From: Candidatus Adlerbacteria bacterium
Lineage (GTDB): Bacteria > Patescibacteriota > Minisyncoccia > Phycocordibacterales > SBAW01
Assembly: GCA_903878285.1 (NCBI GenBank)
Contig: CAIRHB010000015.1
Location: 1 to 55,863, forward strand
DNA: 55,863 nt
Direction: 5' to 3'
Part shown: positions 1 through 5,184 of the stretch, in pieces
How positions within the stretch are numbered: position 1 is the stretch's first letter
Layout: each line of letters opens with the position of its first letter
Program-made: the position numbers and the translations under genes
Notes under the pieces: generated by a model
Database searches by the model: none
Told to the model about the DNA's origin: nothing
Seen by the model: only the letters and a program-made list of their open reading frames with translations

Positions 1-144
1 GTATGTCTTCTGGTGTGAGCGCCATACCTGACACACAGTGTACCATTACCGCAAGGGGGTCAGGTGTGGTGGTGGGGATTGGGGGTGTGAGGGGTTACGC
101 GGCAGAGAGTACCCGCAGCTAGCAATATATGGTATAATGCAAAT

Positions 145-318: not shown

Positions 319-352
319 CTCCAGACATCGTTGAATGTCTTATAGAGAAGAT

Positions 353-736
353 ATGCTCAATCATATAACACTCCATGTAAGTAATTTGGAAAAGAGTAAA
401 ACGTTTTTTCGTGCGGCACTTGCACCACTTGGATACAAGTTGCTAATCGAGAAGGAACACTCTGCTGGATTTGGGCAGGAAGACGTTGCAGGCAAGCGCG
501 ACTTTTGGATTAGGCAGCGTGAAATTGGTGACAGTAAGTCGTTTTCTTGCTTGGCGTTCACTGCATCAAGTAAAAATGAAGTCGATATGTTCTATACTGC
601 TGCACTTGGTGCGGGCGGTACTAGCAACGGCGCTCCAGGGTATCGCGTCACGTATCACCCTGGATACTACGCGGCATATATCCTCGACCACAATGGCTAC
701 AACATCGAAGCGGTGTGGGATGATTCAGAAAAATAA
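353..736 (+). CDS. VOC family (glyoxalase/bleomycin resistance-like) protein
   Basis: MLNHITLHVSNLEKSKTFFRAALAPLGY... N-terminal pattern and DHNGYNIEAV C-terminal motif typical of VOC proteins. Confidence 0.8.
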   Translation: MLNHITLHVSNLEKSKTFFRAALAPLGYKLLIEKEHSAGFGQEDVAGKRDFWIRQREIGDSKSFSCLAFTASSKNEVDMFYTAALGAGGTSNGAPGYRVTYHPGYYAAYILDHNGYNIEAVWDDSEK

Positions 737-756
737 AAACATAACTCAACGGCAGC

Positions 757-788
757 TACTGCCCAGCAAAAAGGTGCAACTTTTGGGA
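757..788 (-). repeat. aldolase-tail repeat copy A (degenerate copy of the fba 3' end)
   Basis: tactgcccagcaaaaaggtgcaacttttggg; same layout as copies at ~1317 and ~2005; minus strand reads QKLHLFAGQ*. Confidence 0.85.
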
Positions 789-833
789 GAAACGGGTGCT
801 AGGTATCTTTTTTCTTTTCTTGAGAGCTAGAAA

Positions 834-1304
834 CTACGCGCGCCCAAGCAAGATATACAAGGATTGCCATTGTCCCATAGTCGCAAAATCCACAAGAGCC
901 GTAAGCACCAGCAAGACGAGCAGATTACACGCGATTCGCACAAAGGGAGATGCGGATTGCGCCCTACGATACAGGACACTATCACCAACAAAGAGAGCGC
1001 CGAACGCAATGACTCCTGCAACAACAGAAAAACACACCCGCATCAGTTCACCAATATCGGTACGATGGAACACATCCAAGAGAGCAAGGAAGGGAACAAA
1101 AAGGAACCATTCAATAGTGTGCGGACCAAGAGGAACAAACAAACCGAGGAAATTCACAAACACATTGCCCGAAGCGCCCGTGCCAGTGGGACCGTCGATC
1201 AAGTGCGAAGGAGACCACCCAAATCCCAACAATACCGCTACCCAATACACACATGTGAGAGCCAGATACCAGAAAGCAAATGACGTGTACCGTTTACTGT
1301 TCAT
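834..1304 (-). CDS. hypothetical multi-pass membrane protein
   Basis: 156-aa ORF with several hydrophobic segments; TATAAT (minus strand, 1311-1316) 6 nt upstream of ATG. Confidence 0.65.
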   Translation of the reverse strand: MNSKRYTSFAFWYLALTCVYWVAVLLGFGWSPSHLIDGPTGTGASGNVFVNFLGLFVPLGPHTIEWFLFVPFLALLDVFHRTDIGELMRVCFSVVAGVIAFGALFVGDSVLYRRAQSASPFVRIACNLLVLLVLTALVDFATMGQWQSLYILLGRA

Positions 1305-1316
1305 ATGTGTATTATA

Positions 1317-1348
1317 TTACTACCCAGCAAAGAGGCGCAACTTTTGGG
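1317..1348 (-). repeat. aldolase-tail repeat copy B
   Basis: ttactacccagcaaagaggcgcaacttttggg; minus strand reads QKLRLFAG*. Confidence 0.85.
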
Positions 1349-1400
1349 AAAGACCCTTATACACAATTCTTGATATTCTCGGGTCGTTCTGTTACCATAA

Positions 1401-1493
1401 GGTGGTGTCTGTGGGCGCAAGCCCCGTTCAGCTCACATCGTAAGCTGAAGACAGACACCACGAAAGGACCTCTGCAATCGCAGGGGTTTTGTC
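1401..1493 (+). ncRNA. candidate structured RNA: three-way junction followed by an intrinsic terminator
   Basis: P1 11 bp perfect (1402-1412/1451-1461), P2 GGGC-GCAA-GCCC GNRA hairpin (1413-1424), P3 7 bp (1427-1433/1443-1449), then terminator hairpin 1469-1486 plus TTTT. Confidence 0.5.
1469..1491 (+). terminator. Rho-independent terminator
   Basis: cctctgc-aatc-gcagggg then ttttg. Confidence 0.6.
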
Positions 1494-1504
1494 GTATCAT
1501 ATTG

Positions 1505-1981
1505 TTACTCCTCTGCTATGCTGGCACTAGCGAGGTGCAGATATGAATCGCCATCTTTCAGCTTTACCGTTGACATTACGCTCCAAAAGACGATATTCCC
1601 ATTTCCTACACGCCGTAAGATAATCTTTACGCGAATCGGTTTTGAGCCTTTTGTGATAGCAATCACTCCCCAATATTCAATCTCGCGCATTTCTCTTGCA
1701 CCATCAGAAAATCTTCTTTGACCGACTGGCTCCATCGTGTGACGATACTCCTGAATCGTGCCTGCATTGCGCAAGATATGAGGAACGGCGGGCAACAAGC
1801 TAAACTTTAGTAGCTGTTCCTGTTTAGAACGTTCCCGTTCGGCAGAAAACTGGAGATGATGAAAACCATCCGAGTTAAATACAATGTCTAAACCAAAATA
1901 TGGGCACCTAACTTTCCCGATACTTTTATAAAAAGCCTCGGCTTTTTCCTTTTCTCTTCTATATCGTTCCAATAGTTCCAT
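1505..1981 (-). CDS. hypothetical protein, possible BECR-fold (phage Barnase/EndoU/Colicin/RelE-like) nuclease
   Basis: 158 aa from MELLERYRREK with upstream GGGAGG ribosome-binding site; motif-like blocks FNSDGFHHLQFS, GNIVFWSVM; family call is by eye only. Confidence 0.45.
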   Translation of the reverse strand: MELLERYRREKEKAEAFYKSIGKVRCPYFGLDIVFNSDGFHHLQFSAERERSKQEQLLKFSLLPAVPHILRNAGTIQEYRHTMEPVGQRRFSDGAREMREIEYWGVIAITKGSKPIRVKIILRRVGNGNIVFWSVMSTVKLKDGDSYLHLASASIAEE

Positions 1982-2003
1982 ACCTATCGCCTCCCACCTA
2001 AGT

Positions 2004-2933
2004 TTACTGCCCAGCAAACAACCGCAACTTTTGGGCGACGTAGGCCTGCATCGCGGTGACGGACGGGGTGAGAAATTTGTAGGGGGTTGTTTCTTCGCTT
2101 GTCGTAAGCGTCTTGCGGAGCGAGTCGCGGTACGCGAGCCGCAGGTCGGTGTTGATGTGGATAATGACCACGCCCGCCTTGACCGCCGCGACAAATTCCT
2201 CGTCGGACGAGCCCGAGCCACCATGGAGCACCAGAGGCACACCAACGTGCCCCGTACTATCTGCCACGCCCGGAGTCGGGTTTACCGCCGCAGACAACGC
2301 CGCGATGCGCGAGATAGAGAGCTTCGGCTGCCCGCTGAGGACAATGCCATGGATATTGCCGACCGCAGGCGCAACGAGGTCGATACCCGTTTGGGCCACC
2401 AGCTCTTGCAGCTCTTCTGGTTTGGTCATCAACTCCTCGGTCGCGGCAGCACCCTCGGGGAGCGCGTCCATCACTGCAGACGAGGTGCCGATGTAACCGA
2501 GCTCCCCTTCGATCAACACCTTCGTGTTGATCGCTCCGAGCGCCGTCGAGGAGCTAGCGTGCTTCTCCTGTGCATACGCTACCGCCGCCTTGCATAGCGC
2601 AACATTATCAGCAAACGACAGCTTCGCACCATCAACGACGACAGAATCTACTCCTGCATCAATCGCGGCGCGCACCTTTTCGATACTGTAGGTGTGGTCG
2701 GCGTTGAGATATATCTGCGCACCCTGCGCGTTGTAGATATCCACTAATGCTCGCGCATGTGTTATTGGAAAATACTCGCGCTCGCCCTCCGACAAACCGA
2801 CCGCGACCGGCAACCCAGTCTCCATCGCCGCCTGCGCGATCGCCTTGAGCTGGTTTGAATCCGAAAAGTTAAAATGCCCCATCGCCCGCCCCGCTTTCGT
2901 ATAATTTTGAATGGTTTCTCGTAGTGTTTGCAT
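2004..2933 (-). CDS. fba: class II fructose-bisphosphate aldolase
   Basis: GHFNFSD, NADHTYS, LHGGSGSSDEEF and HINTDLR motifs. Confidence 0.93.
   Translation of the reverse strand: MQTLRETIQNYTKAGRAMGHFNFSDSNQLKAIAQAAMETGLPVAVGLSEGEREYFPITHARALVDIYNAQGAQIYLNADHTYSIEKVRAAIDAGVDSVVVDGAKLSFADNVALCKAAVAYAQEKHASSSTALGAINTKVLIEGELGYIGTSSAVMDALPEGAAATEELMTKPEELQELVAQTGIDLVAPAVGNIHGIVLSGQPKLSISRIAALSAAVNPTPGVADSTGHVGVPLVLHGGSGSSDEEFVAAVKAGVVIIHINTDLRLAYRDSLRKTLTTSEETTPYKFLTPSVTAMQAYVAQKLRLFAGQ
2005..2036 (-). repeat. aldolase-tail repeat copy C (native, the fba 3' end)
   Basis: ttactgcccagcaaacaaccgcaacttttggg; encodes QKLRLFAGQ*. Confidence 0.85.
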
Positions 2934-4192: not shown

Positions 4193-5184
4193 ATACGGGT
4201 TAACTTGCGAGACTGCGCTTTTTTGATTGCTGCGACGACGTGTAAGACGCCCATGCCGTAGTGCTCGATAAGCTCGCTCGGCTCGCCCGATTGCCCAAAC
4301 TGGTCGCGCACACCAACAAACTCGATTGGTACGGGGTACTCCTGCGCAAGTAGCTCGGCGATTGCCCCACCCAGACCGCCTGCAATCTGGTGCTCCTCGA
4401 CGGTCACGACAGCACCCGCCGCACGTGCCAGAGCGACCACCGCCTCGCGGTCGAGCGGTTTAATGGTGTGGATGTTGGTGACCGAGACAGCAGTGCTCGA
4501 CCCGAGCTCTTTTGCTGCCGCGAGCGCGTTGTAGAGCAGCGGGCCAGTCGCGAAGATTGCCACCTCGGGGCGCTCGCTTGTCCACACTGTTTGCGCTTTG
4601 CCAAAGACAAACGGTGTCTCGGCGGTCGTCATCAGCGGCGTCTTCTCACGGCCAAAGCGCAAATACACAGGGCCATCATGCGCCGCCGCGGCAAGCGTCG
4701 CCTTGTATGCCTCCACCTCGTCGCAGGGCGACAACACGGTCATGTGTGGCACGACGCGCATGAGCGCGATGTCCTCCAGCGCCTGATGCGTCGCGCCGTC
4801 GGGCCCGACCGACACCCCCGCATGCATACCGCATACCTTGACGGGCAGCTGGTTGAGCGCTGTGGTGGTGCGAATCTGCTCCCAGTTGCGCCCAGGAGAA
4901 AACGCCGCGTAGGACGCGACAAAGGGGACTCTGCCATAGGCGGCAAACCCCGCGGCAAGTGTGACGAGATTCTGCTCCGCGACACCCACCTCGACAAACC
5001 GCTCGGGATATTTTTCCTTAAACGGCAGCGTGCGCGTCGACTCTGCCAAGTCGGCACAGAGCACCACAACATTCTTGTGTGTCTCTCCCAACTTGAGCAA
5101 CGCGCGACCAAACCCATCACGCGTGGGAGCCTGTTCTTTCATCTCAAACAAATCACTTCGCAGTTGTGCAGTTGGTTCTAGCAT
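4189..5184 (-). CDS. transketolase, C-terminal subunit
   Basis: Pyrimidine-binding and C-terminal transketolase motifs (GVAEQNLVTLAAGFA, GMHAGVSVGPDGATHQALEDIALMR). Confidence 0.92.
   Translation of the reverse strand: MLEPTAQLRSDLFEMKEQAPTRDGFGRALLKLGETHKNVVVLCADLAESTRTLPFKEKYPERFVEVGVAEQNLVTLAAGFAAYGRVPFVASYAAFSPGRNWEQIRTTTALNQLPVKVCGMHAGVSVGPDGATHQALEDIALMRVVPHMTVLSPCDEVEAYKATLAAAAHDGPVYLRFGREKTPLMTTAETPFVFGKAQTVWTSERPEVAIFATGPLLYNALAAAKELGSSTAVSVTNIHTIKPLDREAVVALARAAGAVVTVEEHQIAGGLGGAIAELLAQEYPVPIEFVGVRDQFGQSGEPSELIEHYGMGVLHVVAAIKKAQSRKLTRI

Follow-up and report, generated by a model that had tools for sequence, protein, structure and literature searches.

Copies of the fba 3' end and a predicted RNase-small RNA module downstream of the aldolase gene in a Candidatus Adlerbacteria genome

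The fba locus and the copies of its 3' end

The window, i.e. the whole stretch of 55,863 nucleotides analysed here (contig CAIRHB010000015.1 of a Candidatus Adlerbacteria bacterium), shows downstream of fba a series of short genes separated by copies of the fba 3' end. The features of this region are the following, with the evidence for each in brackets:

82 to 106, no strand: IS end (GGGGTGTGAGGGGTTAC) with an 8-bp target duplication, link to the rplY-bearing contig C5 (sequence comparison)
335 to 736, plus strand: convergent VOC/glyoxalase-like gene, flanked by copy 1 and the IS end (Pfam Glyoxalase, 2.3e-4)
757 to 787, minus strand: copy 1, displaced fba 3' end, QKLHLFAGQ* (pattern match)
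834 to 1304, minus strand: gene A, membrane protein of 156 aa with no relatives detected (ORF list; homology searches)
1311 to 1316, minus strand: TATAAT box of gene A, directly past copy 2 (sequence; in many relatives rplY, too, has such a box right behind fba)
1318 to 1348, minus strand: copy 2, displaced fba 3' end, QKLRLFAG* (pattern match; its end lies 13 bases ahead of the gene A start codon)
1370 to 1398, plus strand: TTGATA-17-TACCAT, promoter-like, for the RNA gene (spacing kept in most of 59 loci)
1398 to 1465, plus strand: three-way-junction RNA, convergent with gene B; match to model R1 including flanks (69.7 bits; covariation)
1466 to 1490, plus strand, limits approximate: terminator-like hairpin with T-run, 3'-terminal in the RNA gene (sequence; palindrome there in most gene-B loci)
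1505 to 1981, minus strand: gene B, 158 aa, LPD3/PBECR2-related, predicted BECR-fold RNase (profile matches, conserved residues, structure model)
2005 to 2035, minus strand: copy 3, native fba 3' end, QKLRLFAGQ* (pattern match; C-terminus conserved in relatives)
2004 to 2933, minus strand: fba, class II fructose-bisphosphate aldolase, whose 3' end is copy 3 (Pfam F_bP_aldolase, 3.1e-62; orthologs adjoin rplY in the genus)

The pattern TACTGCCCAGCAAA-N5-GCAACTTTTGGG has exactly three matches in the window, with no mismatch at 757-787 and 2005-2035 and one mismatch at 1318-1348, and none in 100 dinucleotide-preserving shuffles. The three 31-bp copies claimed in the initial annotation are therefore confirmed; the starts given there (about 757, 1317 and 2005) hold for the first and third, but the second copy starts at 1318. 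With up to three mismatches allowed, the 26-bp core is found at these three sites alone in the 930-kb genome, so that the proposed search for the 31-mer in the genome and its relatives yielded no fourth genomic copy. Only one further core match was found in the 41 family genomes scanned: it has one mismatch and is the single fba 3' end in G024, the nearest relative. A core match with three mismatches in G016 was rejected as chance, on a hand estimate of the chance level. The core has no exact match in IMG/VR or in the GTDB contigs scanned. Aldolase sequence is joined to copy 3 only, in agreement with the earlier reading of the last copy as the native fba end and of the other two as lacking upstream aldolase. 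Comparison with relatives shows that QKxRLFAGQ* is the ordinary aldolase C-terminus, and the repeat is ordinary fba coding sequence, the variable 5-bp centre being mostly synonymous codon variation. Copy 3 and G024 encode the second leucine by TTG, copy 2 by CTC and copy 1 by CTT; CTC is also used for this leucine in several relatives, and CTY leucines are common to many relatives that lack gene B. The left boundary of copies 1 and 2 falls on one and the same base of the fba end. Each interval contains one minus-strand gene, as had been described: gene B (1505-1981) in one and the membrane protein gene A (834-1304) in the other.

Beyond copy 1, the window positions 82-106 and the positions 124-148 of contig C5 (L089, G000:C5) are the two ends of one IS (GGGGTGTGAGGGGTTAC) with a common 8-bp target duplication, TCTGCCGC, and the rplY gene of this genome begins 207 bp into C5. 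The paired IS ends and the shared 8-bp duplication give the order fba, copy 3, gene B, RNA, copy 2, gene A, copy 1, VOC gene, 57-aa ORF, IS and rplY. The C5 side of the IS encodes an apparent transposase C-terminus, and an identical 17-bp end is found in another genome next to an RNA locus (L208:124). Upstream of rplY, a degenerate candidate for a fourth fba end (GTTTGCGCTCTTT) was rejected as chance: its local score is only 8-9, and a similar -35 is found in another relative.

The fba and rplY genes were found near each other in 27 relatives. In 19 of them rplY comes directly after fba, with a gap of 27-77 nt, and the other eight show a gap of 409-2761 nt filled with unrelated small genes. 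The interval of G008, G011, G012, G015, G019, G027 and G030 contains differing lineage-specific small genes in each, and the fba flank is therefore a general insertion hotspot in the genus. Comparing the fba 3' flank across relatives, suggested earlier as a check, thus revealed different inserts in 8/27. The other fba-flank inserts in the genus do not carry fba-end repeats. Uninterrupted fba-rplY sites are found only in relatives with about 50-74% fba identity, and G024 shows the arrangement fba, gene B, RNA and rplY, with a gene B protein identity of 92%.

Gene B and its convergent RNA

Within the order, 54 of 398 genomes contain relatives of gene B, and in a phylum sample 35 of 384 do. The genomes compared are incomplete assemblies, reading frames at other loci were assigned by hand, and gene names at other gene-B loci are our reading of the proteins. 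Of 58 family members, 25 match Pfam LPD3 (best 4.2e-9) and three match PBECR2 (best 1.9e-5); the protein of the window itself falls below the LPD3 cut-off. In the family, His42 and Arg51 are invariant and Ser134 is present in 90% or more. The AlphaFold2 model of gene B (pLDDT 89) places His42 in helix 37-44 and Ser134 in the last strand, 131-137. BECR RNases have an active-site His in an early helix and a Ser in the last strand (PMC5512222), and the modelled placement of His and Ser corresponds to this active-site arrangement. A fold search of the PDB showed no match below an E value of 0.001, the CdiA toxin 6cp9 reaching a TM score of only 0.35/0.43; the best viral fold match is a polyvalent protein. 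Since the residue placement agrees but no PDB fold match is significant, a BECR fold is likely, not proven, and gene B is a predicted BECR-fold endoRNase. Searches with gene B or the RNA in PADLOC, PHROGs, PDB sequences, Rfam, plasmids and phages gave nothing convincing, and both together apparently constitute an undescribed family, an RNase-like protein with a matching small RNA.

Two gene-B relatives have unusual surroundings. In L113 (G006:C1) the frame of a minus-strand relative runs into an apparent zinc-ribbon part of a large serine recombinase, a continuity that may represent a fusion or an insertion. At L133, in another family, a relative is located between pfkB and fba, flanking fba on its 5' side; a second RNA copy is found upstream.

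Most gene-B relatives show a palindrome downstream followed by a compact fold, and the opposite strand of this fold is a three-way junction. The initial annotation had placed a possible BECR nuclease plus candidate RNA in this interval; both parts are supported, but the RNA is on the plus strand, convergent with gene B. Read as the minus strand, the RNA region of the window also folds strongly (z -4.8). The promoter spacing is fixed: the -10 box is mostly 7 nt upstream of the RNA and a TTGAC-like -35 box lies another 16-17 nt upstream. Covariation is strong and supports the three-way junction: 96% of cells are paired and nine pairs show double changes, versus 3.9 in shuffles (0/500), and in slid controls the count drops to 0-2 pairs. 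The Rfam search with the RNA gave no match. Protein and RNA distances are correlated (Mantel r 0.706 versus a maximum permuted value of 0.141) and nearest neighbours belong to the same RNA class in 49/51 cases, a co-divergence that is partly expected from common descent. Gene B and the convergent RNA are one module.

The RNA is also found alone: 13 of the 29 RNA matches in 248 genomes have no adjacent gene B, and in some loci, e.g. L148, L151 and L163, the protein gene is decayed and the RNA is kept. The genome under study itself contains a second, differing RNA copy without gene B (L201, G000:C17:12908-12975), with an ABC-transporter gene on one side and a cytochrome b-like gene on the other. 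Other genes occur next to the RNA in some genomes. In G131 a PemK/MazF-like toxin gene (L210:1960-2379) ends 65 nt ahead of an orphan RNA, in the usual place of gene B; in G279 a DUF4258/DUF2283 gene pair (L208:426-906) adjoins an orphan RNA; and NYN-domain genes are near the RNA in three genomes (L205, L209 and L151), two of these cases being by orphan RNAs. In L151 a duplicated promoter region is common to the NYN-like gene and gene B.

The predicted BECR RNase, the cognate RNA, the patchy distribution, the decayed proteins with the RNA kept and the orphan RNAs resemble toxin-antitoxin biology with an RNA antitoxin. From these features we infer an RNase activity and an antitoxin role for the module, and a putative toxin/RNA-antitoxin-like function is our best guess. 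Gene A has no relatives other than one weak match in 298 genomes and, having neither an RNA nor known relatives, it is no further case of the gene-B module.

Source of the repeats

A scan for flanking repeats at 74 gene-B loci gave 12 loci above the maximum of 579 cross-locus control pairs, and 1 of 111 control genes exceeded the threshold (Fisher 6.6e-5, computed with 12/72); this control gene, L093, is a palindromic repeat. The window scores 24, between the 95% and 99% points of the null, because the repeat is only 32 bp. After inspection eight of the 12 loci were kept in addition to the window, and their duplicated sequences are the 3' ends of clpB, trmD and an scpB-like gene, the start of one gene, a segment of a gene, a promoter region and two intergenic stretches. 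Repeats that come from a duplicate RNA (L133), glycosyltransferase paralogs (L132) or repeated elements (L163 and L182) were not taken as host duplications. In G022 the gene-B relative is flanked by the clpB 3' end on one side and by an 82-bp copy of that end on the other, and in G010 the duplicated sequence is the 5' end of a small membrane gene. Beside the G010 locus, perfect inverted repeats of 44 and 23 nt surround a lysS-like gene (L114:2635-2701 and 4208-4307). The majority of gene-B loci, and the orphan RNAs, show no flanking repeats. The proposal that elements insert beside a gene 3' end and regenerate it gains support from the fba-flank inserts in 8/27 relatives and from the gene-B loci elsewhere that are flanked by host duplicates.

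These loci bear on whether the 31-bp core is an att or attC-like site at which an unseen recombinase adds cassettes to fba. Such a site would account for the identical left boundaries of copies 1 and 2, for the equal internal spacing of the three copies with their variable 5-bp centre, and for the presence of one gene per interval in the same orientation. However, the core is found nowhere else in the genome, its centre reflects mostly synonymous codon variation, the other inserts of the genus lack fba repeats, and other gene-B loci are flanked by different sequences. Recurrent target genes are almost absent across these loci, and the duplicated sequences have nothing in common with each other; their difference from locus to locus speaks against a recombinase site. 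The attC cores R'' (RYYYAAC) and R' (GTTRRRY) have no match in the three repeats or the RNA region on either strand. As had been noted, no recombinase is visible in the window: the genome (97.6% complete) encodes two tyrosine recombinases, both on other contigs, and neither passes as an integron integrase, the best TIGR02249 score being 121 bits versus a cut-off of 265. The att-like or integron-like organisation suggested initially is not supported, in the light of the missing attC cores and integrase, the locus-specific duplications and the repeat-free inserts, the recombinase search proposed with it having returned only these two genes. Site-specific recombination is regarded as improbable.

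The differences between the copies give information about their source. Over five coding loci they comprise 19 synonymous and five nonsynonymous changes, with 17/24 at third positions; the L129 copies were excluded from this test as possible paralogs. In simulations of copies that start identical and then decay, the synonymous fraction averages 0.38-0.44 (P at most 0.0007, for 24 changes with frames assigned by hand). The synonymous bias therefore makes the copies look like alleles from different strains. This bears on a transposition-like insertion in which the gene-B module duplicates 30-100 bp of its target. Host duplicates of variable length, different at each locus, do directly flank the module, and insertion with long target duplication has a precedent in the literature, having reportedly been proposed for Helicobacter restriction-modification genes. 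Copies made in this way would be identical at birth and then decay as non-coding sequence, against the mainly synonymous differences observed; moreover, neither conserved ends nor a transposase are obvious in the module, and the orphan RNAs are not flanked by duplications. Target duplication is for us a rather unlikely explanation.

The last 60 nt of fba match G024 in 53/60 positions, versus 0.74 for the rest of the gene, and 4-fold-site identity to G024 is 0.667 in gene B versus about 0.51 in its neighbours (P 0.027). The G024-like fba tail and gene B would fit an entry of gene B together with a donor fba end. A search for the native copy among clpB relatives showed no distinction, because the C-terminus is too variable. 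The leucine codons of copies 1 and 2, which are those of other species and not that of the genome's own fba gene, weigh against a local duplication, in which slippage or unequal exchange copied the fba end in this lineage and the intervals are old neighbours. The copies are short and every one is downstream of fba, as a local event would leave them, but gene B moves between loci and genomes and other genes show the same pattern, and we consider this explanation highly improbable.

The favoured mechanism, over a recombinase site or a simple target duplication, is homology-anchored illegitimate recombination. With moderate confidence, the fba ends are taken as scars of successive insertions by this route, and the B-RNA module most likely as a toxin with an RNA antitoxin or inhibitor. 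Donor DNA from a relative would pair with the recipient fba 3' end, so that the new fba end is donor-derived, and an illegitimate joint within the recipient's own fba end would connect the far side of the donor DNA. As a result the old end would be retained and shifted downstream together with the former neighbour of fba. In an earlier event gene A would have entered and copy 1 been displaced. In the newest, gene B and the RNA would have entered, copy 3 being the new end and copy 2 being displaced yet still directly ahead of gene A. The spacing between copy 2 and gene A (13 bases with the TATAAT box between) resembles that between fba and rplY in relatives. We infer both the recombination route and the order of events. 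The same start base in copies 1 and 2 counts against two independent illegitimate joints; this common boundary could come from a shared GC-rich CCC at the joint or from later exchange between fba ends. The rarity of flanking repeats among gene-B loci and the repeat-free orphan RNAs also count against this explanation.

Alternatively, a ribonucleoprotein of gene B and its RNA might drive its own spread, with the RNA or the protein directing insertion beside host genes and carrying the host-gene end along, a possibility we find quite improbable. On this reading the module would be a small mobile element without transposase or recombinase, and the orphan RNAs would be non-autonomous or protective derivatives.

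Comparison with known systems

Should the module prove to be a toxin with its RNA antitoxin, the arrangement (convergent, with a single three-way-junction RNA and a BECR-like protein) would be new and spread across a phylum of small-genome bacteria, and RNA control of an RNase could be studied in a small system that is clonable. In the displaced fba ends one would have a readable record of gene gain without integrases in such genomes, and the synonymous-difference test can tell between-strain recombination from target-site duplication at repeated gene ends.

As in the Helicobacter restriction-modification insertion, a mobile unit is located between direct repeats, tens of bp or longer, that derive from local host sequence; here, however, the copies diverge like orthologs of different strains and what is carried is an RNase-like gene with an RNA. 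Integrons (PMC9668308) likewise are arrays in which a repeated element stands between single genes of the same orientation, but at the fba locus no integron integrase or attC motifs were found and the repeat is the end of a housekeeping gene.

Type III toxin-antitoxin systems (ToxIN, CptIN; PMC5086642) also combine a predicted endoribonuclease with a small structured RNA of matching lineage and a terminator between them. In these systems toxin and RNA share one operon, the RNA repeats precede the toxin, and the RNA is pseudoknotted (PMC5086642), whereas the RNA described here is a single three-way junction, convergent, downstream of gene B and with its own promoter, and the protein is BECR-like, not ToxN. 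With an RNA that is convergent, single and not upstream of the toxin, the module is not type III as defined. The LPD3 and PBECR2 domains of phage polyvalent proteins (PMC5512222), LPD function being mostly left open there, share with gene B sequence similarity, the His in an early helix and the Ser in the last strand; they differ from the free-standing proteins of about 155 aa found here in bacterial chromosomes with a linked RNA.

The T6SS effector/orphan-immunity arrays of Vibrio cholerae are attributed to homology-facilitated illegitimate recombination without specific integration sites, and their authors compare them to integrons (PMC5361080). In these arrays, as proposed for the fba locus, modules enter successively at one anchor gene, with the newest nearest to it and the older 3' ends shifted downstream. 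The anchor in V. cholerae is a secretion-system effector gene, whereas here it is the housekeeping gene fba, of which only short 3' ends are displaced.
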